Shown one piece after another: positions 1,108 to 13,890 of a stretch of 14,078 bases of DNA (the stretch's first letter is position 1; every line of letters starts with the position of its first letter). Source of the DNA: Demequinaceae bacterium UBA4004 (GTDB taxonomy: Bacteria > Actinomycetota > Actinomycetes > Actinomycetales > Demequinaceae); assembly GCA_002384765.1 (NCBI GenBank), contig DGBM01000302.1:206-14283 (forward strand), given 5' to 3'. The notes beneath the pieces were generated by a model. It made no database searches, was not told where the DNA came from, and saw only the letters and a program-made list of their open reading frames with translations. Position numbers and translations under genes: made by a program.

Positions 1108-1139
1108 TGGAGCCGACTAGGGGACTCGAACCCCTAACC
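1108..1139. repeat. attL: 32-bp left attachment repeat (displaced tRNA-Thr 3' part)
   Basis: Bases 1108-1139 are identical to 13859-13890, the 3' part of the tRNA-Thr gene on the minus strand (CCA, acceptor 3' strand, T-arm and variable loop). Identity stops at 1140. With a one-base gap it resumes for TCTGTT, a weak match into the anticodon stem. This is the displaced tRNA 3' fragment expected at the distal end of an element integrated into a tRNA gene by a tyrosine recombinase. Confidence 0.95.
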
Positions 1140-1150
1140 TCTGTTAGGGG
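1131..1150. repeat. 8-bp inverted repeat straddling the attL inner edge
   Basis: CCCCTAAC (1131-1138) and GTTAGGGG (1143-1150) are perfect reverse complements around a 4-base spacer. The right arm belongs to the element, so the palindrome would also exist in the excised attP. There is no T-run after it, so it is not a classical terminator. Confidence 0.6.
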
Positions 1151-1434
1151 ACACGTTATCGATGGGTCTCGACTGAGTGTGCTTACTGTCGACGTGACCA
1201 GGCGCTTTTGACGCCGCCGTGTCGACTGGTGTCGATCTGAATGCAGGCGACTAGATAGGAATGTGGGCGACTAACTGGGCGACCAGACGCTGCGACCGCA
1301 CCCGGCCGATTGCTAACGTCCGGAGGCAACCGTTCGGCCGGCGGTTCAGGCGAGCGAGATAGTAAGGCGGTGCAGCTGATGCTCGGTGGGGTTCGCGCGT
1401 CGACGACCCACAACACTGTCACGGTGGTGAAGAG
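1140..1434. promoter_or_regulatory. Left-end spacer with candidate integrase arm-type sites
   Basis: No gene is evident in these 295 bases. A paired TGGGCGAC-type motif lies at 1264-1283 (TGGGCGAC, four bases, TGGGCGACC). A looser AGGCGACT copy lies just upstream, at about 1246-1253. The same paired motif recurs in the same orientation near the right end at 13782-13801. Subterminal direct repeats at both ends of an integrating element are what arm-type integrase or directionality-factor sites look like. Their function is inferred from position and repetition only. Confidence 0.5.
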
Positions 1435-1451
1435 GTGACGCCGTTGTGGGT
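1406..1451 (+). promoter_or_regulatory. Nested inverted repeat enclosing the start codon at 1435
   Basis: ACCCACAAC (1406-1414) pairs with GTTGTGGGT (1443-1451), and GTCAC (1418-1422) pairs with GTGAC (1435-1439). The inner stem contains the GTG start codon of the first cargo gene, and the loop holds its purine-rich leader. In mRNA this could mask translation initiation. The complementarity is seen; the regulatory role is inference. Confidence 0.4.
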
Positions 1452-2046
1452 AACGATCGGCGGGTATGTGCTCGCTGCGGTCGCGGCACTCGCCGGAGTC
1501 TGGCTGACCCAGCGCGCCGAATCCAGACGGACCGCCGCTATCCATGCTCTTGAACGTCACCGGCGCGAAGCAGATGCGATCGCCGGGTTCCTCGCGGCCT
1601 CCCAGTCAGTGGGTATGCAGTGGAGCGGATATCTCGGCCTGCTCTACCGCGCCGAATCGACAGCAGCGATCCAGGACGCTGAGGACAGATGCGTCCCGGG
1701 CATCAATCAGGCAATGCTCGACCTCACGTCGGCATTGGCCCAGGTCGAGACCTCCGTTCGTTCCCCCCAGCTGGTCGGGCTCGCATCCCGCGTTGAGGTC
1801 CGCGGGTACGACATCGTTGCGGCCATGGAGCGTTACATCCTCGCCATGACGAAACAGAACCTCGACTGGATTGCAGAGCGGTGGAGCGAGTTCAATCAGG
1901 AGCGGCGGGGTTTCGTCGATGCAGCTCGGGCGGCCGTATTCCCAATGGAGAGCGCGGTGAAGCGGACGCCGTACACGTTCTTGACCGGCGGCGGCGTCGA
2001 TGCCCACAGAGGCCGGCCTGCACAGCGGACCCACACGGCCGGCTGA
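1435..2046 (+). CDS. Membrane-anchored protein of unknown function (left-end cargo)
   Basis: 203 aa from GTG 1435. One hydrophobic N-terminal segment (about residues 5-24, VTIGGYVLAAVAALAGVWLT) is followed by a charged helical stretch with Gln, Arg and Glu (AESRR, ALERHRREAD), then a mostly alpha-helical body to about residue 180 and a polar tail. This suggests a single-pass protein anchored by its N terminus with the bulk in the cytoplasm. I do not recognise the family. It is the first gene inside attL, where satellites and prophages usually carry non-structural cargo such as defence or exclusion genes. A second membrane protein follows 58 bases downstream on the same strand, so the two may be co-transcribed. 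Its start codon lies in a potential RNA hairpin. Confidence 0.7.
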   Translation: MTPLWVTIGGYVLAAVAALAGVWLTQRAESRRTAAIHALERHRREADAIAGFLAASQSVGMQWSGYLGLLYRAESTAAIQDAEDRCVPGINQAMLDLTSALAQVETSVRSPQLVGLASRVEVRGYDIVAAMERYILAMTKQNLDWIAERWSEFNQERRGFVDAARAAVFPMESAVKRTPYTFLTGGGVDAHRGRPAQRTHTAG

Positions 2047-2104
2047 TTCGAAGAGGCGTGATGCAGCGCGACCACGTGAGCCGGAGCGGTGAGATGATCA
2101 GCGC

Positions 2105-2782
2105 GTGAATAGGCACGCCGGATGGTGGATAGGCGGGGCGACAGCAACCGTCGTCCTCTTCGTCATCGTCTGGTTCGTGGCAGGCGGCGACGGCGTAGGG
2201 GCCCGGCTCGCCACAGTCGGGACGGTCGTCGGAGGAATAGCCGCGGCTGTCGCCGCGATTGCCTCGTTGGTGTCGGCGCGAGCCTCATCGAGTGCTGCCC
2301 ATGACGCACGCGAGACCGCGGCGCGAGCTAGGGAAGCTCTGGCGCTCGTCGTAAAACCTACGGTGCGGCCGGACAAGCCCCATGTCCCCATTGATCATCC
2401 GCCACACGAAGCCGCGAAGTTGAATTTTCCTTGGCGAATCGGCGTCCGATGCTTCTCAGCGAACGAGGCGATCAATGTAGGTATCCGCGTGGAGGTCGGC
2501 GACCGCAAGTTCACAGACCAGTGCGCGGTCCTACGTCTATCAGAGACGCTGATGACAGAGGAACTCGATCTCAAGGTGCCGATCTGGGATGAGAGCTGGC
2601 GCGGTGAAGGAACGCTCCCCATCCGGACCGAGTACGAGTTCGAAGACGCGCGCCGTGTTCAACGGTGGCGCGGGCTCGACAGCGGAGTAGTTCGCTACGC
2701 AAGGACGGGTGATCGCGTAATGCTTCGGTACGAGCACACGGGTGGGCATGAACCGCGAATGGTGCCGACCGACGCGCGGTGA
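2105..2782 (+). CDS. Two-helix membrane protein with a C-terminal beta-rich domain, unknown function
   Basis: 225 aa from GTG 2105. Two hydrophobic segments near the N terminus (about residues 8-27, ending VWFVAGG, and 36-57, containing TVVGGIAAAVAAIASLV) are followed by an Ala/Arg-rich helix (about 58-82) and a soluble domain of alternating short strands (about 105-215). No catalytic motif is evident and I do not recognise the family. The membrane hairpin plus cytoplasmic domain resembles the preceding gene in general plan, and both are read rightward from the left end of the element. Possible roles include superinfection exclusion or an abortive-infection effector, but this rests only on topology and position. 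It converges on the 266-aa leftward gene across a long inverted repeat. Confidence 0.7.
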   Translation: MNRHAGWWIGGATATVVLFVIVWFVAGGDGVGARLATVGTVVGGIAAAVAAIASLVSARASSSAAHDARETAARAREALALVVKPTVRPDKPHVPIDHPPHEAAKLNFPWRIGVRCFSANEAINVGIRVEVGDRKFTDQCAVLRLSETLMTEELDLKVPIWDESWRGEGTLPIRTEYEFEDARRVQRWRGLDSGVVRYARTGDRVMLRYEHTGGHEPRMVPTDAR

Positions 2783-2786
2783 TGGG

Positions 2787-2857: not shown

Positions 2858-2859
2858 GA

Positions 2860-3660
2860 CTAGGGGCGCACGTAGTCGCCGAACGCGCGCAACTGCGAAT
2901 CGCGCGTGAGTGTGGCAACCTGCGCCGAGCTCGTGACGAGCCGTTCCAGCTCGGTGAGCGTGCCGTCGCGGAATGCGACGGCATCCGCCACGGCCTCCGG
3001 TAACGGCTCAATTGTGCGTTTCTCCTGGTCGAACCGATGCAGCTGCCCGGCGTCGAGGCCGCGCGACTCGAGGTACCAGCGGCCCCACTCGCTGCTGGCG
3101 AGTAGCCATACCGTGGCGTCGTCACCGCTGCGCTTCGCTTCGGTGAGGATGCGGATTGTTCGGTCGACGAGCTCGTCACCGTCGTCGCCGCCGAAGCCGG
3201 CGGCAGTGCGCGGCGCCAGGCGCATTTGCAGGTCGGTCTTGCGCGCCGCTTCGTCGGCGTCGCTGACGGTCTCGGGGCGCGTGGGTACAGTGTCTCGGTT
3301 GACGCGTGTGCGGAGCTCGGCGACGTTGCCGGCCGCGGTTGCTGCCTTGGCTTCGGCGTTCGCGAGAGCTTCGGTGAAGATCTCAGTGGCCGCGTCCTGC
3401 CGTACTTCGGGGAGTAGATAGTTCGCGCCTTCACGGATCTTAGCGTGGGCTCGCGTGAGTCCTTCGACGGGAACGTTGAGGCTTCCAGCGACATCCTGGA
3501 GCGCGTTCAGGACGCGGGTTCGGTAGTCGCTGGGGGTATCGGCGAGACGCTGCTCGAGCGCGTTGCCGATGTGGCGGATGTGGTGCGCGTCGAAGGGGGC
3601 GTGAACTTCGTAGGGTGCGTCGGCGGGCATTGCGGGCTTTTCGAACATGCTTGCGCTCAT
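2860..3660 (-). CDS. 266-aa protein of unknown function, possibly virion-associated
   Basis: 266 aa, ATG at 3660, preceded by an excellent ribosome binding site (AGGAGG, 6 bases before the ATG). The sequence is acidic and largely helical, with an Ala/Glu-rich stretch (about residues 85-120, EALANAEAKAATAAG), an Asp/Gly-rich turn (FGGDDGDELVD) and a conserved-looking block DDATVWLLASSEWGRWYLESRG. There is no membrane segment or signal peptide. I do not recognise the family. Its leader is closely similar to the one at 7391-7444 upstream of the minor capsid gene, and it has the same direction as the packaging and capsid block. That fits an original place in a phage structural operon (scaffold- or head-associated), but this is inference. 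The cargo genes at 4028-6185 now separate it from that block. Confidence 0.75.
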   Translation of the reverse strand: MSASMFEKPAMPADAPYEVHAPFDAHHIRHIGNALEQRLADTPSDYRTRVLNALQDVAGSLNVPVEGLTRAHAKIREGANYLLPEVRQDAATEIFTEALANAEAKAATAAGNVAELRTRVNRDTVPTRPETVSDADEAARKTDLQMRLAPRTAAGFGGDDGDELVDRTIRILTEAKRSGDDATVWLLASSEWGRWYLESRGLDAGQLHRFDQEKRTIEPLPEAVADAVAFRDGTLTELERLVTSSAQVATLTRDSQLRAFGDYVRP

Positions 3661-3714
3661 GTGTTCCTCCTGGTCGATGTGGTGTCATCGTCCAGGGGCG
3701 CGTGCCAGCACAGA
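3661..3714 (-). promoter_or_regulatory. Conserved leader copy A (start-associated sequence)
   Basis: Read leftward it runs TGTGCTGGCACG, then GGACGATGACACC, then CGACCAGGAGG just before the ATG at 3660. The same order of blocks is found at 7391-7444, with a shortened version at 9064-9113. The repeat covers far more than a ribosome binding site, suggesting shared promoter, translational or recombination function. Confidence 0.6.
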
Positions 3715-4027
3715 CCTGTTCATGATCGGCGTGCACAGCGCTAGGCCGACGGCGCATGTATGGAGCGCACTATGAGCAGACTTCATGATCTGCTTTCTCA
3801 GGTCGGGGCGACGGTGAACGAAGGAACGTACCCGGCTGGGTGATGGTCGTCGTCATGACTATGGCGACCGGTCACCGGGCGACCGTGTGAAGATGCAGTT
3901 CGGGTACGGAAGGCGGGATCACATCGCCGCCCACAACGCAGCCCCTTTTTCTGTCTGCAGGCGCGTTGATACTGTCCCAGTGAAATACGCAGACCGTATG
4001 GTAGGAACCAACATGAAGGAGGCCGGG
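3715..4027. other. Divergent intergenic region with one tiny ORF
   Basis: This gap lies between the leftward 266-aa gene and the rightward module at 4028. It holds one short ORF with a plausible Shine-Dalgarno: ATG 3772 to TGA 3843, 23 codons, GGAG at 3762-3765, starting MSRLHDLLSQVG. Within it AGCAGA and TCTGCT form a small inverted repeat (about 3775-3794). A TATGGT at 3997-4002 could be a -10 element for the downstream module. Nothing else is evident. The tiny ORF may be a truncated gene, a leader peptide or chance. Confidence 0.4.
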
Positions 4028-4213
4028 ATGTCGACTGCGACCGTAGCGTTTCGCGATCGATCTGAGGTTCAACATATTCTGGACAAACTTCTTCGAAGGC
4101 TGGGGCGCAACGCCGACGAACTCCGTGAAGCCGACGCTAGATACGAACTCACCCCCGATGAGCAGGCCGACCTGATGCGCGTAGAAAGCCTGGAGTGGCT
4201 GCTTAAGCCATGA
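4028..4213 (+). CDS. Small charged protein, first gene of an ATGA-coupled pair
   Basis: 61 aa. ATG 4028 is chosen because AAGGAGG (4016-4022) sits 5 bases upstream; the frame is open further upstream, but those starts lack a ribosome binding site. The product is short, helical and highly charged, with a basic-hydrophobic helix near the N terminus (VQHILDKLLRRLGRNADELR) and an acidic C-terminal half ending EWLLKP. Its TGA overlaps the ATG of the 248-aa gene (ATGA at 4210-4213), a tight coupling typical of proteins made in fixed ratio. Size and arrangement would suit an antitoxin, adaptor or small subunit for the next gene, but there is no recognised DNA-binding motif. Function unknown. Confidence 0.7.
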   Translation: MSTATVAFRDRSEVQHILDKLLRRLGRNADELREADARYELTPDEQADLMRVESLEWLLKP

Positions 4214-4956
4214 CGCCACCGCCGTATCCGGCAAGTTCGGCGAGCCGGGACCTTGCTTCACAAGCAAACGCGTTCGCTGAAGACTTGAATCGAACGATCA
4301 CGTTGATCTTCGGCGAGGAAACGGACACGTTCGAGAGCGCCAGCCTCGAAGATCGCGTGTCGATCGACAACCTTCGGATCACAATGCGCAGAGGTGGAGA
4401 ACCGGTTCTTCAGGTTTCGGCGCGGTACCTCCTCAGCCTCGACCATCGGAGCGATTTCTTGCGCGTTGCGCAATCGCAGATACGGGTCGTCCCGGTGGGC
4501 GTTAACCGGCCCGTGTTTCGATACGAGTACGAAGAAGGGTACGAGGATGGCAGCCCTCATCCGGCCGCGCATGTGCAGTTCCACGGCGTGCACCCTGACC
4601 TGCAAGATGTCATGAGCCGGGCCTGGCGGAAGAAGCCGCGCGATGCTGATGCGCCTCCGGATGTGACGCATCTGCACTTCCCGGTCGGAGGAACGCGATA
4701 TAGGCCGTGCCTTGAAGACGTGCTCGAGATGCTCTTGGTGGAATTCAAGCTAGACGTCGCGTGCGGTCGGAAAGCGGCCCTCGAAGTACTCGCCGACCAA
4801 AGGGCTACATGGCGTCGGCGGCAACTCGCGACGGTAGTCCGCGACGATCCCGAGACCGCCATAGACGCTCTTGTTCGCCTTGGGTACGCGCGACCGAGAC
4901 TTCTGCCTGGCGTCAACCAGCCCCCACGCCACGACGAGCACCTCCGTCGGATCTGA
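4210..4956 (+). CDS. 248-aa conserved-looking protein of unknown function, second gene of the coupled pair
   Basis: 248 aa, ATG 4210 overlapping the stop of the 61-aa gene. There is no signal peptide or membrane segment. It begins with a helix (about 15-35), continues as a beta-rich section (about 50-110), then has two histidine motifs, HVQFHG (H121, H125) and THLHFPVGG (H154, H156). A helical C-terminal domain follows, containing CLEDVLEMLLVEF and RATWRRRQLATVV. The spaced histidines might bind metal or form an active site, but I recognise no catalytic family. With its small partner it forms a compact two-gene cassette in the cargo zone of a mobile element, where toxin-antitoxin and anti-phage modules are common. 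That role is inference from context only. Confidence 0.75.
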   Translation: MTPPPYPASSASRDLASQANAFAEDLNRTITLIFGEETDTFESASLEDRVSIDNLRITMRRGGEPVLQVSARYLLSLDHRSDFLRVAQSQIRVVPVGVNRPVFRYEYEEGYEDGSPHPAAHVQFHGVHPDLQDVMSRAWRKKPRDADAPPDVTHLHFPVGGTRYRPCLEDVLEMLLVEFKLDVACGRKAALEVLADQRATWRRRQLATVVRDDPETAIDALVRLGYARPRLLPGVNQPPRHDEHLRRI

Positions 4957-5023
4957 CATCGAGCGCGCGTCCGCGCCTATCACCACGCCGCGATCATCGG
5001 ATATTTTGTCACCCCTGGCCGGC

Positions 5024-5245
5024 ATGATCTCCGCCGTGATCATCGAGTCCCAGCCGCCGACCTGCAGCTGCGGCAACGACTGGACCGCCCGGGACCAGAT
5101 CGTCGGGTGGCTGCCGTGCGACTGCGCCCGCACGGCCGGTCATCGCACGTGGGAGTGCCAGCGGTGCGGCACGGTCTGGTCGCGGCCGCCGCACGTGGAC
5201 CGGCGCGGTGAGCTCGGGCGTCAGCCGAACAACAGTGGACGGTGA
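5024..5245 (+). CDS. Small zinc-ribbon-like protein
   Basis: 73 aa from ATG 5024; a GTG at 5039 is an alternative. The frame is open upstream to 4871, but that part overlaps the preceding gene and has unnatural composition. The centre has three cysteine pairs: CSC near residue 15, CDC near 33 and CQRC near 46, separated by Trp-containing spacers. This fits a small zinc-binding fold that may bind nucleic acid or act as an adaptor. No ribosome binding site is evident, so the mRNA may be leaderless or translation may be coupled. It lies 67 bases after the 248-aa gene on the same strand. Specific function unknown. Confidence 0.6.
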   Translation: MISAVIIESQPPTCSCGNDWTARDQIVGWLPCDCARTAGHRTWECQRCGTVWSRPPHVDRRGELGRQPNNSGR

Positions 5246-5294
5246 CGGCACCTAAGTGTTAGATCGACGTTATGTGCTTATCCGGGGGAGAACA

Positions 5295-5552
5295 ATGACC
5301 GAGCCATATCGACGTAGCCCCCATGACCGAGGCCTGGAGCCGCTGCCGATTGCGCTGGTCGTCATCGCGACCATGTTCTTCAGTCTCCCTGGGCTCGTCC
5401 TCGCGATCATCGGCTTCTACCAGGCGCAACGCATCGGGCGGGACGGTAACCCCTGGCTTCAGGCCTGGATCATCACAATGATCGTGCTCGTTCTGATCGT
5501 GATCGTGATGATGGTGGCGTTGCAGAGCATGGTCAAGGGGTGGGTTGAGTAA
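5295..5552 (+). CDS. Small two-helix membrane protein
   Basis: 85 aa. ATG 5295 is chosen because GGGGGAG (5284-5290) lies 4 bases upstream, better than the earlier in-frame start at 5256. After a polar N terminus of about 17 residues come two long hydrophobic helices (about 19-41, LPIALVVIATMFFSLPGLVLAII, and 55-75, AWIITMIVLVLIVIVMMVAL) joined by a basic loop (QAQRIGRDGNP). This is a helical-hairpin membrane protein of unknown function, similar in size to DUF4190-type actinobacterial proteins. It is followed 51 bases later by a lipoprotein gene, so the two may form a cell-envelope pair. Confidence 0.7.
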   Translation: MTEPYRRSPHDRGLEPLPIALVVIATMFFSLPGLVLAIIGFYQAQRIGRDGNPWLQAWIITMIVLVLIVIVMMVALQSMVKGWVE

Positions 5553-5603: not shown

Positions 5604-6185
5604 GTGAGGGCATGGGCGTTGGGGCTGGCGCTGTTGCTGGCCGGATGCGGTGGGGCAAGCGGGGAGTCAGCAGCGTCGGAACCGCCGGCGGTCGAGACGG
5701 AGATCGAGGGCGGCCAGGAGGCCCTCGACGCGGAAGCATCAGCGAACGCGGCGCCGACGATCGAGGCCGATGATGTCGCAGAGTGGGATAACGGACTGAC
5801 CGCGAAGATCACCTCAGTGACGACCGAGAAGGTGGACCACGAGCAGTACGCCGAAAAGGGCCACGACACGGCAGTGACTATCACAGTCGAGATCACGAAT
5901 GGTGGCGACGGCGTGTTCGTGTTCGACAACCCGTACATGGGGCCGAACGGTCCGAGGGATGGCCTCTACTACGGGGAGAATCTGTACGAGGCTCAGAGCT
6001 GGGGTGATGATGTTGAGGGGATAGATGGGCTCCCGAAGCAGATCGTGCCTGGGTCATCGGTCCCCTATACCGAGCTCTGGACCCTCCCCGGCGAGGGGCT
6101 GGCGTCGCTCACGTTCGAACTCACTCCGGACAAGGGGAACCTACCGATCTACACGTTTACCGGCGTCGAGACGCTGATCGCCTAA
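5604..6185 (+). CDS. Lipoprotein with a DUF4352-like immunoglobulin-type domain
   Basis: 193 aa from GTG 5604, preceded by GAGGGGAG. The N terminus is a short lipoprotein signal, MRAWALGLALLLAGC, with lipobox LAGC and the lipidated cysteine at residue 15. A low-complexity acidic linker (about 16-58) leads to a beta-sandwich-like domain (about 60-190) with DNGLTAKITSV, DTAVTITVEITNGGDGVFVF and LASLTFELTPD, the pattern of DUF4352/telokin-like domains of actinobacterial lipoproteins. The mature protein should sit on the outer face of the cytoplasmic membrane. In mobile elements such lipoproteins can be lysogenic-conversion or superinfection-exclusion factors; here that is a suggestion only. It is convergent with the minor capsid gene. 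Confidence 0.8.
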   Translation: MRAWALGLALLLAGCGGASGESAASEPPAVETEIEGGQEALDAEASANAAPTIEADDVAEWDNGLTAKITSVTTEKVDHEQYAEKGHDTAVTITVEITNGGDGVFVFDNPYMGPNGPRDGLYYGENLYEAQSWGDDVEGIDGLPKQIVPGSSVPYTELWTLPGEGLASLTFELTPDKGNLPIYTFTGVETLIA

Positions 6186-6232: not shown

Positions 6233-7036
6233 CTAAGCAGCGCGCAGCACGATGTCACCGAGCCGCGGTACCTCACGCCACCGATTCCGCTTCAGCGTGC
6301 CGCGGGGTTCCCACTCGAGAACGTGCGCGGCGAGCTCCGCGCGTTTCGCTTTCAGCTTCGCGTAGGTAGCTTGTGTCGTCGCTGCACGCGGGCCGATGGT
6401 GGCGCGGTTCGTCTCGTGCAGGAGGCGCGCTTGTCGTATCTCGCGTTCGAGACGGCGTTGTTTTTGGGATGCTGAGTAGCCCTGGGGGTCGGGGGTGCTC
6501 TTCGGGTTCGGCAGCTGGTCCCCCTCGCGCCACCACGGGTACGCCTGATGCCGGCAGTTCGGGTGAAACAGGCCCTCGCTGCGTGCCAGGTCGAGGGTTG
6601 CTGTTGCGACGTCGTCCGTGACGCCGTCGATGCGGAGCACGCGGGTTTCCCACGGTCTGCACCGTGCGCATTCGCGGTGCGCGTTGCTGATGACGACGTA
6701 GGGCGTGCCGGTGTCGTTTGCGGCGTTGATGCTGACGGCTTGGTGTGCCTGCTGGGCGTGGGTGCGCAGCAGCATTTCTGAGTAGGTGGCGGGTTGCCAG
6801 CGGCGGCCGGCGGAGTCACGTAACGCGTCGGTGTGGACGCCTTGCGCGATGAGGTCCAGTGCGGCGGCTCGTGTGGCCGTGGGTAGGTCGTTGATGCCGT
6901 CCGCGTGGTCGGCGAGGGTCTTGGTTATCGAGTGCTGCGCGGCGACGTACAGGCCTCTCATCCCTGTGCGCCAGACGCCGCGGGCCTGCGTCACGTACTC
7001 GTGCGCGGGCACGTAGCCGTGTCGGTATGCGGCCAC
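6233..7036 (-). CDS. Phage minor capsid protein 2 / MuF-like protein, main (C-terminal) part
   Basis: 267 aa from GTG 7036 to TAG 6233. The middle matches the phage minor capsid protein 2 (MuF-like) family: SNAHRECARCRPWE followed by LFHPNCRHQAYPWW, giving a probable zinc-type cluster of H120, C123, C126, H158, C161 and H163. A long basic coiled-coil helix follows (about 185-250). MuF-type proteins sit inside the capsid near the portal and help head assembly or injection of co-packaged proteins. The frame continues sensibly upstream of the GTG (a DLYEAAVAAYRHG-like run), but no start codon exists there. The missing N-terminal part is in another frame just upstream, so this is most likely one gene split by a +1 frameshift. 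The part shown may still be translated from 7036. Confidence 0.85.
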   Translation of the reverse strand: MAAYRHGYVPAHEYVTQARGVWRTGMRGLYVAAQHSITKTLADHADGINDLPTATRAAALDLIAQGVHTDALRDSAGRRWQPATYSEMLLRTHAQQAHQAVSINAANDTGTPYVVISNAHRECARCRPWETRVLRIDGVTDDVATATLDLARSEGLFHPNCRHQAYPWWREGDQLPNPKSTPDPQGYSASQKQRRLEREIRQARLLHETNRATIGPRAATTQATYAKLKAKRAELAAHVLEWEPRGTLKRNRWREVPRLGDIVLRAA

Positions 7037-7094
7037 GGCTGCCTCGTACAGGTCGCGGCCGGCGCTGATGATGGCGCGGTCGACGGCGGCAGAG

Positions 7095-7334
7095 AGCGGC
7101 GGGCGCGATACGGAGCCAGGCCGCCTCGAGACGCTGTCGCGCTGATGTTTCCCAGTTGCCGGCCGGGCCTGCCGTGTCGGATAGGCGGGGTGCGATTGCG
7201 TCGACTAGGGCGTAGAGCATGAGGTACTGCGCTGACCAGAGGGCGTCGGATGCGGAGATGACGACGCGGTCGATGTGTTGCTGTAACTGTTGGAGGGCGG
7301 CGTGGATGGCGCGGGCCTCATCCATGTCCGGCAT
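7095..7334 (-). pseudogene. N-terminal part of the MuF-like minor capsid protein, frameshifted
   Basis: ATG 7334 opens a frame (MPDMDEARAIHAALQQL..., then APRLSD..., then RLEAAWLRIAPA) that reads like the helical N terminus of minor capsid proteins up to about 7100. Beyond that it becomes Arg/Pro-rich nonsense, although it stays open to 6816. The natural continuation (SAAVDRAIISAGRDLYEAAV) is in the frame of the downstream part. The offset from 7334 to 7036 is 99 codons plus 1 base, so a +1 shift near 7090-7103 would join them into one protein of about 365 aa, close to normal family length. Causes could be real decay, programmed frameshifting or a sequencing error; no obvious slippery heptamer is visible. 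The upstream ribosome binding site is weak. Confidence 0.7.
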
Positions 7335-7336
7335 AC

Positions 7337-8130: not shown

Positions 8131-9061
8131 GGGTTCCCCCGTGCGTGCTAGGGGCGGTACGGCACTGACGTGTGCCGCGAAGCGTGCGCAGCAGGATTTC
8201 AGCGTGCGCGAACGTCCAGGCCTGCCCAGGCCACGGGAGGCCGGCGCGTGTCCACCAGCCTGCTGACGTGTCACCGGGAACGTAGGGCGTCGTTGCGGCG
8301 TGCGGTCCCGCGTCGTGGATCAGCCGGTCGCGAGTGTCAAAGAGCCGCCAGCCATGTACGCCTTCGCGTTCGAGCCTGGCCGCGAGGTCGAGGGCCGCGT
8401 TGTCGGCTCGGTCAGCGTCCACATGCTCGATGACCACGCCGGAGTGCTGCCACGCTTCTAGGGCCGGTTCTCCGAGCTGGGGCTTGGGGATGAGCCGAGC
8501 GACCAGCCACGGGTCGGGGCGCGTGAATTCGATCCGCGCGTACTGGGGCGGGTGGTCATCCCACGCGCGCAGCTGGATGAGGGGGCGGTCACGCACGCTC
8601 TGCGCGTTGTGGGCGTCGGCGCCGCGGCGTCGTCGGGCGTCCTGTTCATAGCTTCGGTGTGCTGCCTTGCAGGCGTCGCAGCGGCAACCGGGGTAGGCGC
8701 TGCTTCCGATATACCGGCTGCGGGTGGCGTGGGGGGAGCGGCGCGCGGCCGCGCGGGTCACTCCCAGCAGGCTCGCCCGTTCCGGCGTGCTCAGGCCACC
8801 GACCACGGTGTAGGGCTCGGTGATGTTCGCGGTGAGGCACTGTTCGCGTACCGGGCAGCCGTGGCAGATGGCGCGTGCGGCTGCGAGCTCGGTCGGGCTG
8901 GCGGGGTCCCAGTAGTCGACGTCGTGCCCGACGCACGCCGCGCGGCCGGTCCAGTCCGGCGGCGCTTCGAGCGCGTCGTTCTGGTGCCCGCTGGCGCTGC
9001 GGAGGACGTTCATGCCCCGGGCGGCGCGTTCGGCGTCGAGGTGGGTGGCTGGTCGGCTCAT
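8078..9061 (-). CDS. WhiB-like iron-sulfur protein with a second cysteine motif and C-terminal extension
   Basis: 327 aa from ATG 9061; ATG 9070 is equally possible, and the frame is open to 9190, which would overlap the previous gene. The N-terminal domain carries the four WhiB cysteines C43, C66, C69 and C75 (C-x22-C-x2-C-x5-C) in ACVGHD...CHGCPVREQC, followed by VVGGLSTPERASLLG, the usual G-rich turn and helix. WhiB proteins bind a 4Fe-4S cluster and control transcription with the primary sigma factor. A second cluster, YPGCRCDACKAAH (C126, C128, C131), resembles motifs common in actinophage DNA-binding proteins. The remaining ~190 residues match nothing I recognise. At 327 aa it is about three times the usual WhiB length. 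It may control the element's own genes or those of a helper phage; this is inference. Confidence 0.85.
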   Translation of the reverse strand: MSRPATHLDAERAARGMNVLRSASGHQNDALEAPPDWTGRAACVGHDVDYWDPASPTELAAARAICHGCPVREQCLTANITEPYTVVGGLSTPERASLLGVTRAAARRSPHATRSRYIGSSAYPGCRCDACKAAHRSYEQDARRRRGADAHNAQSVRDRPLIQLRAWDDHPPQYARIEFTRPDPWLVARLIPKPQLGEPALEAWQHSGVVIEHVDADRADNAALDLAARLEREGVHGWRLFDTRDRLIHDAGPHAATTPYVPGDTSAGWWTRAGLPWPGQAWTFAHAEILLRTLRGTRQCRTAPSTHGGTRDRASSRETAAHSSSAA

Positions 9062-9063
9062 GC

Positions 9064-9113
9064 CGGTCATCGTCCGCGCGTGCCTGACAGCGAGACACCG
9101 GCACGAGTCAGCA
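9064..9113 (-). promoter_or_regulatory. Shortened conserved leader copy C
   Basis: Read leftward it contains GTGTGCTGAC, then GCTGTCAGGCACG, then GGACGATGACC, ending 2 bases before the WhiB ATG at 9061. It matches the upstream half of copies A and B but lacks the CGACCAGGAGG part. It starts inside the stop codon of the upstream HTH gene. Confidence 0.5.
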
Positions 9114-9650
9114 CACGCCTTCACCAGCGGACGGCTGGTCCGGGTCGTAGTCCGGGGCCGCTTGGACGCTCGCCTCGATACCGACGACAAGGCGATGAAT
9201 CAGCCCACGAGCGTTCTCGATGCTGTCGCCTTCGCTGTTCCTCAGTTCGAGGTCGTTGGCGCGCTGCAACGCGATACCCACCGATTGCATGATGTTCCGC
9301 TTATCCGCGAACGTCGGCTCGGTGATCGTGTGCTCGTTGTAGGTGTTCTCCTTGCCACCGAATGAGTACACGAGCGTGGGCTGGTCCATCTGGTCCATGA
9401 GCCGGTCCGCTTGCGCGTAGAGACGCTCGATCAGAGCATTGCGGCGTTCGGCGCCGCGGGCCTTGTTCATCGTCGCGGCTTGTTCGACGTGCGCGACGCG
9501 GTCGCTGGTGTCGACGTTGTTCCGCGCGGCGACGGCGCGGACGGTACCGACGCTCACGCCGGTCTGGTTCGCGATCTGTCGGTAGGGAAGCGCGTCGTAG
9601 AGCAGCTCTACGACGCGCTTCTCCACGTCTGCGGGAATCCTTGCCGGCAC
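9108..9650 (-). CDS. HTH protein, probable small terminase subunit
   Basis: 180 aa from GTG 9650. The N terminus has a clear helix-turn-helix, PYRQIANQTGVSVGTVRAVA (about residues 22-41), after ADVEKRVVELLYDA. The centre, SFGGKENTYNEHTITEPTFADKR, followed by a helix (NIMQSVGIALQRAND), is the pattern I associate with small terminase or terminase-like DNA-binding proteins of actinobacterial prophages. A small terminase recognises the packaging site and brings DNA to the large subunit. No large terminase is encoded here, so a helper's would be needed, as in SaPI and PICI satellites, which carry their own terS. A plain transcription regulator is the main alternative. No ribosome binding site is visible; translation may be coupled to the gene ending 25 bases upstream. 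Confidence 0.65.
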   Translation of the reverse strand: MPARIPADVEKRVVELLYDALPYRQIANQTGVSVGTVRAVAARNNVDTSDRVAHVEQAATMNKARGAERRNALIERLYAQADRLMDQMDQPTLVYSFGGKENTYNEHTITEPTFADKRNIMQSVGIALQRANDLELRNSEGDSIENARGLIHRLVVGIEASVQAAPDYDPDQPSAGEGVC

Positions 9651-9675
9651 GGTGTGAACGCTATGACTGGGCGTG

Positions 9676-10098
9676 TCAGATGAACCGTTGCGCGGCGCGG
9701 GCGATCTGCCGTCTCCACCATGGGCGGCGAGGCTGCAGAGCGGGTGCCGGCGGTACGGGTGGGCGAGTATCGACGACGCCGGTCAACTCGTACTTCCGTC
9801 TGCATTCCTCAAGGAACTGGTTCGCGGCAGTGACGAGCGTGATCGTGTCGCCGATCGTGAACGTCACCGGCGTACAGCCGCCGTCGTCCCACTCGACGCT
9901 GATCCCAAACGTCGGTTGGCTGAACTGGCAACCGCCCGGCAGGTAGTAACCGACGCTGATCACGCCGCCATCCTCGTTCGGCAGACGCGCGAGGTCTGGC
10001 ACGTGGTCGTCGTCCACGCACACCAGTTCGCGGTCACACGGCGGGTCGTGCGGTAGCGGCGTCCACGCCTCGATGGCGGGCATATCGGGCCTGGCCAT
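9676..10098 (-). CDS. 140-aa hypothetical protein
   Basis: 140 aa. ATG 10098 is chosen because AAAGGAAC lies just upstream; the frame is open to 10269, but that part is low-complexity and overlaps the previous gene. The N-terminal two thirds look like a compact beta-rich domain (GGVISVGYYLPGGCQFSQPT, GISVEWDDGGCTPVTF, IGDTITLVTAANQFLEECRRKYE). The C terminus is proline-rich then strongly basic (PPVPPAPALQPRRPWWRRQIARAAQR), which could bind nucleic acid or a partner. I do not recognise the family. Lying between the zinc-finger protein and the probable small terminase, it is in the slot where PICIs carry genes that redirect helper packaging, so that role is worth considering but unsupported. 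Confidence 0.7.
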   Translation of the reverse strand: MARPDMPAIEAWTPLPHDPPCDRELVCVDDDHVPDLARLPNEDGGVISVGYYLPGGCQFSQPTFGISVEWDDGGCTPVTFTIGDTITLVTAANQFLEECRRKYELTGVVDTRPPVPPAPALQPRRPWWRRQIARAAQRFI

Positions 10099-10256
10099 GA
10101 ACGTTCCTTTCGTGCGCGTGCGAGACACGGTCTGAACGCGTTGGATCGGGTGGTGTGGCCCCTGTCGGGCCGTCGGTTTTCTGCCGTGTCGTGTTGGCGT
10201 GTGCGTGGCGGGCTCTTGCTCGGTCAACCCGGGGTCGAGTGGGAAGCGCCGAGCGG

Positions 10257-10511
10257 TTAGGCGGCCCACCAGTCGGCGTTAGCGTTGTCGGCTTGGCGGC
10301 CCCATGCGGTGTAGCCCGCGCGTGTGCTGGCGGTGAGCCCGGCAGCGGCGGGGTGTTCGCAGCGGCCTGCTCGCTGGTGCTTGTCGAAGCTGGTGATGCT
10401 GGTGAATGTTTGGTGGCATGCGCGGCAGTGGTATGTTGCGATGCCTCCCCAGCGGTTCTGGCAGGCGTTGCAGCGGTGGGGTGGTGTGGTGGCTCGGATG
10501 GTTGTCGTCAT
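10257..10511 (-). CDS. FDxHR-type phage zinc-finger protein
   Basis: 84 aa, ATG 10511, with GGGAA 7 bases upstream. It has C14-x2-C17, then HCRACHQTFTSITSFDKHQR with C29, C32 and H45, and C51 in AGRCEHP. This is the small FDxHR-like zinc-finger family common in actinobacterial phages and integrated elements, usually near replication or regulatory genes. It is expected to bind DNA or RNA in the cytoplasm; the precise role is not known for the family. It is the first gene after the iteron cluster in the leftward direction, so the ~260-bp region upstream may hold its promoter as well as the origin. The C-terminal third is polar and aromatic-ended (ADWWAA). Confidence 0.8.
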   Translation of the reverse strand: MTTTIRATTPPHRCNACQNRWGGIATYHCRACHQTFTSITSFDKHQRAGRCEHPAAAGLTASTRAGYTAWGRQADNANADWWAA

Positions 10512-10576
10512 GATCGATTCCCGTCTTTCCCTCGCGCGCGTTCTGTTACGTGAGGTACGTCTAGAAGGTAAGTAGG

Positions 10577-10619: not shown

Positions 10620-10649
10620 TGGCAGTGGCTGCAACCCTTACGGGGCAGG

Positions 10650-10762
10650 GAATGACACCCTTTCGAGTCAGTGAATGACACCCTTTCGGGTCGCTAGGCG
10701 ACACCCATTCGCCCGGCGCTCTGGTCCCGGAAAGGGGATCACTTGCCGACACCCTTTCCGGT
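10650..10762 (+). repeat. Iteron cluster, candidate replication origin of the element
   Basis: Copies of a GACACCCTTTCGGGTC-type repeat start with GAATGACACCC at 10650-10669 and 10673-10692. Diverged copies are at 10699-10714 (CGACACCCATTCGCCC) and 10747-10762 (CGACACCCTTTCCGGT). Cores are 23 bp apart for the first three, and the fourth is 48 bp further on, roughly two more steps. An inverted, degenerate copy lies at about 10724-10740 (GTCCCGGAAAGGGGATC). Regular spacing of about two helical turns downstream of a replication-type gene is the layout of an iteron origin. A repressor-binding array is the alternative. Confidence 0.6.
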
Positions 10763-10773
10763 CGTCACGAGGC

Positions 10774-11115
10774 CTAGGGAAAGGTCTTGGCATCAACGGC
10801 CACGAACCGATCGAGCGTGAGCTCGTACTCAGCCCGCGACCCTCGATAGCCGGCCGAGACCCGCTTGACGGCGCCGGCGTCGATAAGCGCGCGAAGCACT
10901 TTCAGAATCTCGCCCTTCCAGTTCTTGTTGCGCTCGTATCCGAGCCACGTCGCCATTTCCAGCGCGCCGACGTAGACCCGATTAGGCGGTCGGCCGTCGT
11001 CGCGCGGTCGTTCGGGATCCAGGCTCGTGTGCGCCATGAACGTCAGCAGAAGCCGCGGTGTGGGGTGGAGGTCGGGCCAGTCTGCGATGACGCGGGCGAC
11101 GTTGCTATGTCCCAT
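10774..11115 (-). CDS. Winged-helix replication-type protein
   Basis: 113 aa from ATG 11115, overlapping the stop of the 57-aa gene. The pattern is RLLLTFMAHTSLDPERPRDDGRPPNRVYVGALEMATWLGY, then WKGEILKVLRALIDAGAVKRV, then a YRGSRAEYEL wing. This is the winged helix-turn-helix architecture of small replication initiators or helix-turn-helix proteins in actinobacterial plasmids and phages. It lacks helicase or primase motifs, so it would bind an origin and recruit host replication proteins. The gene ends 12 bases from an iteron-like array, which supports a Rep role. A transcription regulator is the alternative. It is the last gene of a tightly packed leftward series from the excisionase. Confidence 0.65.
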   Translation of the reverse strand: MGHSNVARVIADWPDLHPTPRLLLTFMAHTSLDPERPRDDGRPPNRVYVGALEMATWLGYERNKNWKGEILKVLRALIDAGAVKRVSAGYRGSRAEYELTLDRFVAVDAKTFP

Positions 11116-11278
11116 AGCGTCGCGCTTCGAGCGCGGCGTAGTCGTTGGTCGGCAGCCGCTCGGGATGCTGCGCCCGATTCTCGCGCGGCCGGGAACACGC
11201 GTCGCAATACTCCGGTGACGACGACGGGATGAACGCGTGCGGTCGCGGTGGTCGCCATCCGGCCCTGTGTCGGCTCAT
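11105..11278 (-). CDS. 57-aa Cys-pair protein embedded in an overlapping gene chain
   Basis: 57 aa, ATG 11278 to TAG 11105. The product has a basic Trp/Pro-rich start (MSRHRAGWRPPRPHAFIP), one close cysteine pair (EYCDACSRPREN) and a polar C terminus (DYAALEARRYGT). The motif H-x-F-x-P, C-x2-C, R-x-x-R-x-x-H is common in tiny actinobacterial phage proteins and may bind one zinc ion with histidines. The gene is easily missed, but its start overlaps the stop of the 90-aa gene (TGATG) and its stop lies within the start of the replication-type gene, so all three are likely translated in a chain. Function unknown. Confidence 0.7.
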   Translation of the reverse strand: MSRHRAGWRPPRPHAFIPSSSPEYCDACSRPRENRAQHPERLPTNDYAALEARRYGT

Positions 11279-11550
11279 CACGCGCCACCTGCTCCGCTGG
11301 CAGCCACGGCGGCCAGGAGAGCCTCTGCGAGCTGCTGTGCCTCATTCACGGTGAGGTCCAGTCCGTCATCGTCGATGCTGAGTTCGACAGTCGGGCGGTA
11401 ACCGGCGGCGCGGTCGGCCGGTGAGGGGTGCAGCACTCCGACGTCTATAGCCGGCGCGGCGACGGGCTGCATGCTCGCGATGCGCTCATACGAGTCGCCG
11501 CCTGCGAAAAGGGTCATGTTGCGGGGTTGGGTCAGGGGTAGAGTAGCCAT
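11278..11550 (-). CDS. 90-aa hypothetical protein
   Basis: 90 aa. ATG 11550 is chosen with AAGGAG 10 bases upstream, rather than the longer frame from 11610. The sequence has a polar N-terminal half (MATLPLTQPRNMTLFAGG, SYERIASMQPVAAPAIDVG) and a C-terminal half with PTVELSIDDDGLDLTVNEAQQLAEALLAAVAA, a strand pair plus amphipathic helix seen in many small actinobacterial phage and island proteins of unknown role. Its TGA shares a base with the ATG of the 57-aa gene. It follows a small hairpin and a 24-codon ORF that separate it from the excisionase. Confidence 0.7.
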   Translation of the reverse strand: MATLPLTQPRNMTLFAGGDSYERIASMQPVAAPAIDVGVLHPSPADRAAGYRPTVELSIDDDGLDLTVNEAQQLAEALLAAVAASGAGGA

Positions 11551-11578
11551 GAGATTCGTGCTCCTTCGGGGGTGATGG

Positions 11579-11610
11579 GTGCCCGTGGCTGTTACAGCAG
11601 CTGCGGGCAC
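11579..11610 (+). terminator. Hairpin with T-rich tail (plus-strand terminator-like)
   Basis: GTGCCCG (11579-11585) pairs with CGGGCAC (11604-11610). On the + strand the stem extends to 13 pairs with two G-U pairs and a 6-base loop, followed by TTTGTTGTTT. The wobbles become mismatches on the minus strand and the T-run lies on the + side, so the structure looks made for a rightward RNA, although no rightward gene is nearby. Read leftward, the loop contains the stop codon of the 24-codon ORF. Confidence 0.55.
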
Positions 11611-11666
11611 TTTGTTGTTTCTGCGGTGCTGTGGTGCTCGTGCAGTGTGGATGCGAGCTGGGTCAT
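11592..11666 (-). CDS. 24-codon ORF coupled to the excisionase gene
   Basis: ATG 11666 overlaps the TGA of the excisionase-like gene (ATGA), and the frame ends at TAA 11592-11594. The peptide begins MTQLASTLHEHHSTAETTK, with a natural polar composition. It stops inside the loop of the hairpin at 11579-11610, about 20 bases before the Shine-Dalgarno of the 90-aa gene. It could be a leader peptide whose translation opens the hairpin, or a vestige of a longer gene. It is too short to assign. Confidence 0.4.
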   Translation of the reverse strand: MTQLASTLHEHHSTAETTKCPQLL

Positions 11667-11872
11667 GCGCTCTTCTGCTGCTGCGCTTCGATCCAGGCGT
11701 CCACGCTTTCGCGTGTCCAACGGGCCCGGTTACCTACGCGGTAATGCGGCGGAAGTTTGGACACGGTTGGGTCGCTCTTCTCCTTTGACAACCATGTGTA
11801 AATGGTGTGCGGCTTGACCATCAACCGACTCGCGAGGCCGCGAACGTCGTAGGTCTCATCTCCGAGCGTCAT
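11663..11872 (-). CDS. xis: Excisionase-type HTH protein (MerR-like/HTH_17)
   Basis: 69 aa, ATG 11872, with TAGGAG 6 bases upstream. It has the helix-turn-helix layout of small excisionases and HTH_17 proteins: YDVRGLASRLMVKPHTIYTWLSKE, then LPPHYRVGNRARWTRESVDAWIEAQQ, in which the G-x-R-x-R-W wing and the D-A-W-I helix are typical. Such proteins bend DNA at attachment sites and turn the integrase toward excision; some also act as regulators. Position supports this: it is the first gene of the leftward operon, divergent from the repressor-integrase pair, as in PICIs. The gene symbol is by analogy only. Confidence 0.8.
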   Translation of the reverse strand: MTLGDETYDVRGLASRLMVKPHTIYTWLSKEKSDPTVSKLPPHYRVGNRARWTRESVDAWIEAQQQKSA

Positions 11873-11977
11873 CCCGGCTCCTATCTAATTCGGTCAGTTA
11901 GACAGCCTTGATCTAACTGAAAACGAGAATAACATGCCCTGTCGATATTGGTCGAGATCTGTGTAAGAATAACTAAT
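11873..11977. promoter_or_regulatory. Divergent promoter/operator region between excisionase and repressor
   Basis: This is an AT-rich island in GC-rich surroundings. TCAGTTAGA (11894-11902) and TCTAACTGA (11912-11920) form a perfect 9-bp inverted repeat with a 9-base spacer. A further TCTAAT half-site is at 11884-11889. AGAATAAC is repeated at 11926-11933 and 11966-11973, the second copy near the repressor start. This is the natural place for the XRE repressor to bind and control both directions. Exact -35/-10 boxes cannot be assigned confidently. Confidence 0.65.
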
Positions 11978-12595
11978 ATGGTGAAATTGGATCTCGGGTC
12001 TACTGGTGAAGCCGTGCGTTTGAACATTCGCCACCAGCGAGAGCGGCGGGGCATGAGCCAGGCTGAACTAGCGGCCGCCCTCGGCGCATCCGGACATCCG
12101 CTCACTTTCAACCAGATCAGTCGCATAGAGGTTGGCGCGCGACGGGTAGACGTCGAAGATCTAGTAGCGATAGCCCGGGCGTTAGGTTTGCCGCCCAACC
12201 ACCTGCTGCAGCCGCCAGACGACGCCGAGGCCTGGGGACGAGAGCTGACCAGATCCCACATCGACCTAGCGCGAGAGATCGTCCGCCTAAATCAAATGGT
12301 TGTGACGATCTACGACGACCTAAGCGATTCACTGCTCAGCGTGGAGCACGCGAAGAGGCAGTATCAAGAACGCTTGGCCGCGGAGGGCAAGGACACTGCC
12401 GCGGCATCCGTCGAGGACCGAGTCCAAGGTTCCACTGAGCTTGAGTCGATCGCGGGAGAGTATCTGCGGGCGCTATGGGCCGCGGTACAGGCCGCCGAAA
12501 GGCACCGAGACGACTTGAGCGAGATGGGCGCGATAGCGGACGAGCGGGACCTCATCGAACCGCCGGCCGCCGACCAGGACGAGAATTATGCCTAG
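11978..12595 (+). CDS. XRE-family repressor (Stl/CI-like master regulator)
   Basis: 205 aa from ATG 11978; an in-frame TTG at 11948 would add 10 residues. There is no Shine-Dalgarno, so the mRNA may be leaderless. The N terminus is an HTH_3/XRE domain (about residues 12-75): AVRLNIRHQRERRGMSQAELAAALG, an unusually long turn SGHPLTFNQISRIEVGAR, and DVEDLVAIARALGLPPNHLL. A long helical C-terminal part follows (about 85-200), likely for oligomerisation, without an ImmA/IrrE or LexA-type protease domain. That would suit a repressor released by a helper-phage protein, as with SaPI Stl, rather than by RecA-driven self-cleavage. The gene overlaps the integrase by 8 bases. Confidence 0.85.
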   Translation: MVKLDLGSTGEAVRLNIRHQRERRGMSQAELAAALGASGHPLTFNQISRIEVGARRVDVEDLVAIARALGLPPNHLLQPPDDAEAWGRELTRSHIDLAREIVRLNQMVVTIYDDLSDSLLSVEHAKRQYQERLAAEGKDTAAASVEDRVQGSTELESIAGEYLRALWAAVQAAERHRDDLSEMGAIADERDLIEPPAADQDENYA

Positions 12596-13775
12596 GCCAC
12601 GAACGCCGATCGGGACGCACGGCAGCATCAGCTACCACCAACGCCGAGACAAGGCGCCAGGCGACGGCCCAGACGAGCGCACAGGACGCGTGATCGAGTG
12701 GCGGGCCAAGACCCGCTTCCGCGACTACGACGGCGGCACCCGCGTGGTCACTGCCCGGGCGGCGACCAAGACTGCGGCCGAGACGAAGATCAGACGCAAG
12801 CTCCACGATCTGAGCGCGCCCTCGCGGGAAGAGATCAGTTCCGGCATGCGGCTCGCTGCTCTCGCTGAGGCGTGGCTCGCCGAGATCCGCGCCGACGGCC
12901 GCACGCCGAGCACGGTCGCGCAGTACGAACGCCACGCGCGTGTGCACGTCACGCCGGGGGTCGGGGACCTGCTCATTCGGGAAGCGACCACGCCCGTGCT
13001 CAACCGGTTCGTGCAGCGCGTCCGGGAGCGCTCTGGAGACGCGACCGCGCGGCTGTGCCGCGTCGTGCTCAACGGCATGTTCTCCCTCGCTGTGCGCCAC
13101 GGCGCGAGTCTGGCGAACCCGGTAGCGGGCACGCGCGCCGTCACACCCAAGAGCCGGCCGGTGCGCGCCCTGGCAGACGCCGACGTGCAGCTGCTCCGAG
13201 CGAGGCTCGCCGCCGACGAAGCCGCGCGCCGCGCTGACCTACCCGACCTGTTCGAGTTCCTGCTCGGCACGGGATGCCGACCCGGTGAAGCCCTCGCCGT
13301 CCGCTGGTCCGATGTCGACCTGGCGGCCGAGGTGCCGACTCTGCGGGTCACTGGGACCGTCGTGCGCGTTGCCGGCCGCTTGACCCTGCAGGAGCACACC
13401 AAGACCGAGGCCGGCATGCGCGTACTCGTGCTGCCGCCGTTCGTCGTAGCGACGCTGCTGGCGCGCATCGCGGACGACCCGCGGCCGAACCCGCTCGGGC
13501 TCGTGTTCGCGAGCACGACGGGCACCATCAGGGACCCGCACGCGACGCGACGCGCATGGCGTGACTTCCGGGCGAAGGTCCACGGGTACGACTGGGTCGA
13601 GCTGCGGTCGCTCCGCTCGACAGTCGCGACGCTGGTGGGGCGGTCGACGGATGCGCGGACGGCAGCCGACCAGCTCGGCCACGCCGGCACGGGGGTGACC
13701 GAAAAGCACTACATCGAGCGGGTTCGGCGTGGCCCTGACGTGCGTGACGTGCTCGAAGGATTCGGCCGCGGTTAG
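12588..13775 (+). CDS. int: Tyrosine recombinase (site-specific integrase)
   Basis: 395 aa, ATG 12588, overlapping the repressor stop. It has three parts: an N-terminal arm-binding-like beta region (about 10-75, SISYHQRR to VTARAATKTAAETKIRRKL), a core-binding helical domain (about 88-175, LAEAWLAEI to FSLAVRHG) and a catalytic domain (about 185-385). Active-site residues visible are R231 in TGCRPGEALAVRW, K272 in EHTKTEAGMRV, R343 in LRSLRSTVA, H365 in QLGHAG and nucleophile Y375 in EKHYIER. The first His of the usual HxxR box is Arg340 here. It cuts and rejoins the element at the adjacent tRNA-Thr site. Cotranscription with the repressor implies expression in the integrated state or soon after entry. 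Confidence 0.95.
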   Translation: MPRPRTPIGTHGSISYHQRRDKAPGDGPDERTGRVIEWRAKTRFRDYDGGTRVVTARAATKTAAETKIRRKLHDLSAPSREEISSGMRLAALAEAWLAEIRADGRTPSTVAQYERHARVHVTPGVGDLLIREATTPVLNRFVQRVRERSGDATARLCRVVLNGMFSLAVRHGASLANPVAGTRAVTPKSRPVRALADADVQLLRARLAADEAARRADLPDLFEFLLGTGCRPGEALAVRWSDVDLAAEVPTLRVTGTVVRVAGRLTLQEHTKTEAGMRVLVLPPFVVATLLARIADDPRPNPLGLVFASTTGTIRDPHATRRAWRDFRAKVHGYDWVELRSLRSTVATLVGRSTDARTAADQLGHAGTGVTEKHYIERVRRGPDVRDVLEGFGRG

Positions 13776-13781
13776 GGAAAG

Positions 13782-13801
13782 TGGGCGAGTTTCTGGGCGA
13801 C
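13782..13801. repeat. Right-end candidate integrase arm-type site
   Basis: TGGGCGAG, four bases, TGGGCGAC: the same paired motif, with the same 12-bp period and orientation, as 1264-1283 near the left end. It lies just after the integrase stop and 57 bp before attR. A tandem CGGTTCGC duplication follows at about 13817-13832. Confidence 0.5.
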
Positions 13802-13838
13802 CTGACTGATTCGTAACGGTTCGCCGGTTCGCTACTTT

Positions 13839-13854
13839 TCACATATATATGTGA
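13839..13854. repeat. 16-bp perfect AT-rich palindrome beside attR
   Basis: TCACATATATATGTGA reads the same on both strands. It lies between the integrase and the tRNA 3' end, 4 bases from the attachment repeat, in otherwise GC-rich DNA. It could be a recombination-protein or regulator site. Confidence 0.6.
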
Positions 13855-13858
13855 TGTG

Positions 13859-13890
13859 TGGAGCCGACTAGGGGACTCGAACCCCTAACC
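13859..13890. repeat. attR: 32-bp right attachment repeat within tRNA-Thr
   Basis: Identical to 1108-1139. It covers the CCA end, acceptor 3' strand, T-arm and variable loop of the tRNA on the minus strand, directly beside the integrase gene. The two copies bound a 12.8 kb element. Confidence 0.95.

Follow-up and report, generated by a model that had tools for sequence, protein, structure and literature searches.

We analysed a 14,078-nt stretch of Demequinaceae bacterium UBA4004 (contig DGBM01000302.1 of assembly GCA_002384765.1, positions 206 to 14,283; hereafter the window), which carries a phage-related element integrated at a tRNA-Thr gene. The tRNA-Thr(TGT) gene is intact (13859-13934, minus strand), and its 3' end forms the right attachment (att) site (attR, 13859-13890), which is duplicated exactly over 32 nt at the other end of the element (attL, 1108-1139). 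Because the right copy belongs, as the 3' end, to an intact tRNA gene, the 12,751 bp between the two repeats, measured start to start, represent the integrated element. An earlier sequence-only reading of this DNA had placed the same perfect repeats in tRNA-Thr at the ends of the element, and the exact 32-nt match between the two ends of the 12.75-kb element bears this out.

An integration and regulation module at tRNA-Thr

From the tRNA leftward, the element encodes an integrase and a helix-turn-helix (HTH) repressor on the plus strand. These are followed, divergently on the minus strand, by an excisionase (xis), orf110, a short open reading frame (ORF), orf113, a set of iterons, a zinc-binding protein, orf135, a TerS-family protein, a WhiB-domain protein, an ADP-ribosyltransferase (ART)-fold protein and a MuF minor head protein. 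The left end, about 5 kb long, consists of genes mostly on the plus strand to which family scans assigned no function.

The tyrosine integrase gene (12588-13775, plus strand; PF22022 6e-9, PF00589 4e-8, phrog_1 7e-47) is the element gene adjoining tRNA-Thr. The repressor gene (11948-12595, plus strand; HTH_3 1.4e-12) may start at the ATG at 11978. Both diverge from xis (11663-11872, minus strand; HTH_17 9.1e-7, phrog_66 1.9e-7), and the reading frames of all three genes are open. Just inside the two att copies lies an imperfect 31-nt repeat (GTGGGCGA...TGGGCGACC) at 1258-1288 on the attL side and 13776-13806 on the attR side, identical at 26 of 31 positions; the best match in 60 mononucleotide shuffles was 21 of 31. 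This pair may represent integrase arm-type sites.

Integrase matches at E ≤ 1e-50 were present at 25 places in 23 of 394 genomes, and 20 of the 25 places were fetched. One of these candidates, L146, also lies at a tRNA-Thr(TGT) gene; we rejected it as a copy of the same element, as its ORFs of at least 150 aa read as a non-phage element with transposases. The chromosomal gene flanking the window element encodes a flavin oxidoreductase with at most 60% identity to proteins in the sampled genomes, and the four loci of such proteins that were scanned for an adjacent tRNA gene (L089-L092, each under 4 kb) had none.

Packaging-type genes and a probable head-module relic

The gene at 9108-9650 (minus strand) encodes a TerS-family protein, a small terminase by its context. 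It matched phrog_5536 (2.1e-33), a family for which no function is named, and the terminase small subunit family phrog_1206 at only 0.0014. In Streptomyces phage Eastland the relative is encoded by gene 1, which immediately precedes the terminase gene. The predicted fold is HTH-helix-hairpin-helix (pLDDT 86), and comparison with PDB structures was not decisive. The gene keeps its coding bias without TerL (it is itself part of the training set of the codon model, which was built from eleven of the window's own genes).

With models built from the L009, Eastland and L098 references, we searched 184 sequences from collections that are mostly phage (TerS model match E ≤ 1e-5, window excluded). The 89 other TerS loci recovered (79 distinct sequences) had terL downstream in 87 cases and a portal gene in 86; none had neither. 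MuF was present in 77 of these loci, a count that is partly circular because MuF served to fetch most of the loci outside L147-L183. Among the 37 loci fetched via TerS itself (L147-L183), terL or portal was present in all 37. Because of the partial circularity, we also surveyed 394 genomes of the class. TerS matched at E ≤ 1e-5 in 54 of them, with the weaker matches reaching no further than about position 90. For the 17 genomes with E < 1e-15, one region per genome was examined (L215 being the same place as L006/L077), and terL was found in 13; L223, L224, L229 and L230 were without it. Judged by these relatives, the TerS family belongs to phages.

One phage contig with this family is L009 (IMG/VR 2837730417), which was read over 20.7 of its 35.6 kb. 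There the order is WhiB, TerS, TerL, portal, MuF, scaffold-like, capsid-like and tape-measure-like, where TerL, portal, scaffold, capsid and tape measure were named by reading the translations. The window TerS is 35% identical to that of L009 over 136 aa. The L009 MuF is identical to protein P0002 (355 aa) of Cumulibacter soli, which is probably the host of this contig. The TerS family, MuF and WhiB thus share one region in both places; L009 differs from the window in having TerL, portal, capsid-like and tape-measure-like genes and in having WhiB before TerS.

The window MuF gene, 56% identical to P0002, is split across two frames. The C-terminal part (6233-7036, minus strand) matched the Phage_min_cap2 family over profile positions 137-365 of 366 (PF06152, 1.9e-31). 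The N-terminal part lies in another frame (7090-7334, minus strand), where it was recognised by its codon profile and by 27% identity over 56 aa to the N-terminus of the L009 MuF (E 0.007). The codon profile places the frame change between about 7000 and 7095, and coding bias persists on both sides of the break. A 267-aa form of MuF is listed with four contigs, perhaps copies of one assembly. The larger genes of the element have no further clear frame break; xis, the zinc-binding protein gene and other short ORFs are too short to judge.

Other late phage genes were not detected. None of the 19 element ORFs scanned with Pfam and PHROGs credibly matched a terL, portal, major capsid, tail or lysis family, in agreement with the sequence-only reading. 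Hidden Markov models (HMMs) for terL, portal and major capsid protein retrieved nothing from window ORFs of at least 60 aa, even at E ≤ 1 (the capsid model was built from only 4 sequences). The weak matches that did appear were Terminase_5 (0.093) and GP3_package (0.076) on xis, Phage_holin_3_6 (0.043) and NCBIfam CidB/LrgB (0.0051) on orf98, both below cut-off, and PHROG holin (0.37) and tape measure (0.49) families on orf203 and orf225, respectively. Because L009 has the order TerS-TerL-portal-MuF, TerS and MuF in the window appear to be the two ends of a packaging and head module that survived a deletion, with the middle (terL and portal) and the remainder gone.

Candidate replicon and remaining genes

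A candidate replication initiator, orf113 (10774-11115, minus strand), lies upstream of a candidate replication origin. The protein had no Pfam or PHROG match; it may be winged-helix-like, as read by eye, and a single-sequence AlphaFold2 model was poor (pLDDT 52) and was not used. Relatives were found in 4 of 394 genomes (L098-L101), each followed by GGG-rich repeats, and none in phage or plasmid records. In the window the repeats are iterons of AAAGGGTGTC (10654-10757, minus strand), with three exact copies at 10654, 10677 and 10748 and one with a single mismatch at 10700. Four copies occurred in none of 200 shuffles. A GGG-rich 9-mer is present in at least three copies just past the conserved domain of orf113 in the window, L098, L099 and L101, with spacings of 71/23, 22/23, 23/22 and 69/11 nt, respectively; L100 has four copies of AGGGGGYC, 23-24 nt apart, found by pattern and not as an exact three-copy 9-mer. 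As a control, we counted random 760-nt stretches containing any three-copy 9-mer, which numbered 17 (window), 77 (L098), 46 (L099), 28 (L100) and 21 (L101) of 400 each.

It is plausible from these features that orf113 and the iterons represent an initiator and its origin, an arrangement that may be of the lambda O/iteron sort. The relatives of orf113 have varied surroundings. The one in L098 precedes ORFs for terL and portal, and that in L099, which has iterons, lies beside an integrase gene and tRNA-Ser together with ParA-like and FtsK/TraG-like ORFs (named from translations, with no family search).

The candidate origin also contains a AACAGAACGCGCGCG box (10533-10547, minus strand). A small initiator-like gene with GGG-rich iterons after it occurs in the window, L098-L101, L233 and L267, in surroundings that resemble phages or actinomycete integrative and conjugative elements (AICEs). 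A AACAGWACGCGCGCG box follows the iterons in the window, L099, L100, L267 and L233. A scan of the collection for this box returned at least 120 stretches. Of 131 box regions examined, 9 had a three-copy 9-mer within 450 nt upstream, which was iteron-like in 4 (window, L099, L267 and L233) and not in the other 5. The box was also present in 9 of 296 genomes, with 0 reversed controls among the matches listed; only the locus in G202, which is L100, was origin-like, and the rest look like coding DNA by eye. We therefore rejected the box alone as an origin marker for lack of specificity.

Between TerS and MuF lie two genes on the same strand; 37 nt separate TerS from WhiB, and 4 nt separate WhiB from ART. 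The first (8078-9070, minus strand; start from the gene caller) encodes a WhiB-domain protein (PF02467, 3.9e-11) that is 38% identical to the L009 WhiB over 124 aa. This WhiB, with its long C-terminal extension, follows TerS in the window and precedes it in L009. The second gene (7384-8073, minus strand) encodes a 229-aa ART-fold protein (PF03496 6.2e-6, above its cut-off). Its activity is doubtful because the position of the E-x-E motif reads L-x-E. A word-limited search of 5.8 billion proteins returned no relative at E ≤ 0.001, and none was found in phage records. The WhiB, ART-fold and MuF-like genes that the sequence-only reading had listed are thus all present, with the correction that MuF is not a plain, intact gene.

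On the minus strand, the element further encodes a phage FDXHR zinc-binding protein (10257-10511; PF24071 4.1e-17), orf135 (9676-10083; up to 197 aa with an earlier start), which was placed by codon profile and gene caller and has no assigned function, and the weakly DUF6907-like orf110 (11278-11610; E 0.053, below cut-off). The left end contains the cargo genes orf203 (1435-2046, plus strand), with one N-terminal hydrophobic stretch by eye, coding bias and no family at E < 0.001; orf225 (2105-2782, plus strand), placed by codon profile, with N-terminal hydrophobic stretches by eye; and orf248 (4210-4956, plus strand), placed by codon profile. Also in this region are orf266 (2860-3660, minus strand), with coding bias and nothing credible beyond a lone BrxC row at 0.0022; the small and uncertain orf71 (3998-4213, plus strand; gene caller); orf85 (5295-5552, plus strand), a small hydrophobic protein with weak holin-type rows below cut-off; and orf193 (5604-6185, plus strand), with a lipoprotein-like N-terminus by eye and a match to phrog_806 (7e-5), a family without function.

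Origin and possible activity of the element

We tentatively favour the view that this integrative element derives from a prophage by reduction and could serve as a helper-dependent satellite of TerS type. Its ancestor would have been a temperate phage whose head module ran TerS-TerL-portal-MuF. TerL, portal and all genes from scaffold through lysis would have been lost, and the WhiB and ART-fold genes would have been acquired between TerS and MuF. A mobility kit that looks functional remains, consisting of integrase, xis, perfect att sites, the divergent repressor, the initiator candidate with its iterons, and TerS. Relief of repression, for example by an infecting phage, would allow excision by Int and Xis, followed by replication from the iterons with a host or helper helicase; TerS would then bring element DNA to the large terminase of the helper for packaging in helper capsids. 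We infer this deletion history, and the excision, replication and helper packaging that would follow, and favour a satellite-like reading because the functions retained are those a satellite needs and the functions lost are those a helper supplies.

Several results weigh against this reading. No primase was found in the Pfam and PHROGs scans of the 19 element ORFs, and the element has no recognisable helicase, interference or lysis gene. No promoter was found at the divergence of repressor and xis, where only sigma-70 type sites were sought. TerS had no match in the PDB at E ≤ 0.001, and its name rests on position; the link between TerS and terL is also not absolute, as the 4 of 17 survey loci without terL demonstrate. 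The broken MuF is as decay predicts, and no gene could be placed at about 3661-3997 and 4957-5294. Nor was a second copy found: megablast with the whole element matched nothing among phages or plasmids, the exact 32-nt att had 0 matches in viral_contigs, and single-protein scans of viral_contigs, which reach close relatives only, retrieved no close relative of the integrase, orf113 or the ART-fold protein. The integrase and the exact att thus retrieved no relative at the same tRNA-Thr from viral_contigs.

Almost as serious a possibility is that the element is an inert, decaying prophage whose late region went in one or two deletions and which will lose further genes, with TerS, MuF and the left-end genes as leftovers or conversion cargo. 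Prophages carry lysogenic-conversion genes at the end far from int, which is where the cargo sits here. TerS and MuF both belong to the head module and match phage contigs in their order and strand, MuF is frame-broken, and actinobacterial genomes commonly contain cryptic elements (PMC10023795). However, no other clear frame break was found among the larger genes, the att repeats are identical over 32 nt, and the position of WhiB and the ART-fold gene between TerS and MuF, unlike the order in L009, is not produced by deletion alone. The sequence-only reading had itself named a decaying prophage as the chief alternative, recognisable by full-length prophages at the same site and a scatter of dead genes. 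Phage contigs such as L009 do contain relatives of the packaging genes, and one gene of the element is dead; the scatter of dead genes was not seen, and no relative was found at the same tRNA-Thr. A satellite and a dying prophage differ in present activity, not in origin.

It is also conceivable, if rather improbable, that the MuF break stems from an error in sequencing or assembly and that the element has one intact minor-head gene, which would be compatible with any of the other readings. The coding bias on both sides of the break points in this direction, and the recurrence of the 267-aa form points away from it, unless its four contigs are one assembly's copies.

We consider it very unlikely that the element is a genuine phage-inducible chromosomal island (PICI) of its own lineage, long established in actinobacteria. 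Gram-positive PICIs, including the Staphylococcus aureus pathogenicity islands (SaPIs), are att-bounded elements of about 12-15 kb in which integrase and repressor diverge from xis, replication genes and terS (PMC6092414). The window element shares this order, its 12,751 bp fall within that size, and its att site is in a tRNA gene; terL, portal and capsid genes, moreover, were not detected in it. The same source characterises PICIs as having no structural or lytic genes, PICI-type rather than phage-type orthologues and a replication module with an ori and a primase and/or rep gene, describes their att sites as never occupied by prophages, attributes an own small terminase to some PICIs, and has them induced by a helper phage with which they interfere. 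The window, in contrast, has the frame-broken MuF (6233-7334), and its TerS and MuF, the two genes for which orthology was assessed, have their relatives in phages (89 of 89 TerS loci with terL or portal, in collections that are mostly phage). No primase and no second member were found. Because of the structural relic and the phage-type orthologues, and with no primase recognised, we do not file the element as a PICI. The PICI-like character claimed by the sequence-only reading accordingly stands for layout, size, att, TerS-type gene and missing late genes, and falls short on the structural relic and the orthologues of TerS and MuF. A plasmid- or AICE-like integrative element with a few captured phage genes is the least probable reading, despite the company of the orf113 relative and iterons in L099 (known by reading), since no transfer gene was found among the 19 scanned ORFs and the relative in L098 lies upstream of terL and portal ORFs.

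The satellite reading that we favour can be set beside other actinobacterial elements. The sequence-only reading considered an actinobacterial PICI carrying WhiB, ART-fold and MuF-like genes notable; an actinobacterial PICI would not be new in itself, because candidate Mycobacterium PICIs, including phiRv1/phiRv2, are already published (PMC10654092). Like the window element these are integrase-bearing, and some lie in tRNA genes with tyrosine integrases; some occupy attB sites also used by prophages (PMC10654092). They differ in being defined by an integrase together with a major capsid gene, whereas no capsid gene was found in the window element by Pfam, PHROGs or HMMs, which also separates it from capsid-forming PICIs. 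The Streptomyces satellites MulchRoom and MiniFlayer are likewise phage satellites in actinobacteria but encode their own packaging and capsid genes (PMC10690885). Actinobacterial prophage elements under 15 kb have been suggested to include satellites (PMC10023795), and our literature search retrieved no TerS-only actinobacterial element, which is not proof of absence.

Among the surveyed genomes, L143 (G202:C10, 2297-12332) is, by its predicted genes, a capsid-forming PICI-like element of 10 kb at tRNA-Lys with a 41-nt att. It shares with the window element an att at a tRNA and an integrase and repressor divergent from xis and an initiator, and differs in its TerL, portal, scaffold, major capsid and adaptor genes; no tail-tube, tape-measure or fibre match was found in the 10 of its 14 called ORFs that were scanned. 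The same 3.6-Mb genome, G202, holds a TerS-family phage module (L222) and the orf113/iteron replicon L100 in addition to L143.

Two survey loci without terL, L223 and L224, each have two TerS genes in tandem (6521-7530 and 9444-10453, respectively), and HMMs for terL and portal found nothing in them even at E ≤ 1. L224 has integrase, xis-type HTH, primase/DnaB-type and SprT-like genes and a 187-aa ORF that matches the virion structural family phrog_13989 (8e-11); the integrase of L223 is a reading of its translation. The two loci probably share a chromosomal site because one flank is 81% identical, and no att repeat was found at either. These loci might represent an older branch (L224 with its one virion-structural ORF) of a type of actinobacterial satellite that is guided by TerS, lacks a capsid, arises from prophages losing terL-to-lysis but keeping TerS and replicates from a small initiator/iteron replicon, although we regard such a type as unlikely.

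An inert window element would simply be a reduced prophage of the ordinary kind. If mobilised, the element would be a prophage caught in the course of becoming a satellite, with the relic of its old head module still readable, and would bear on the origins of satellites. In that case, searches based on capsid genes, like the one behind the Mycobacterium candidates (PMC10654092), would miss satellites that carry TerS only.

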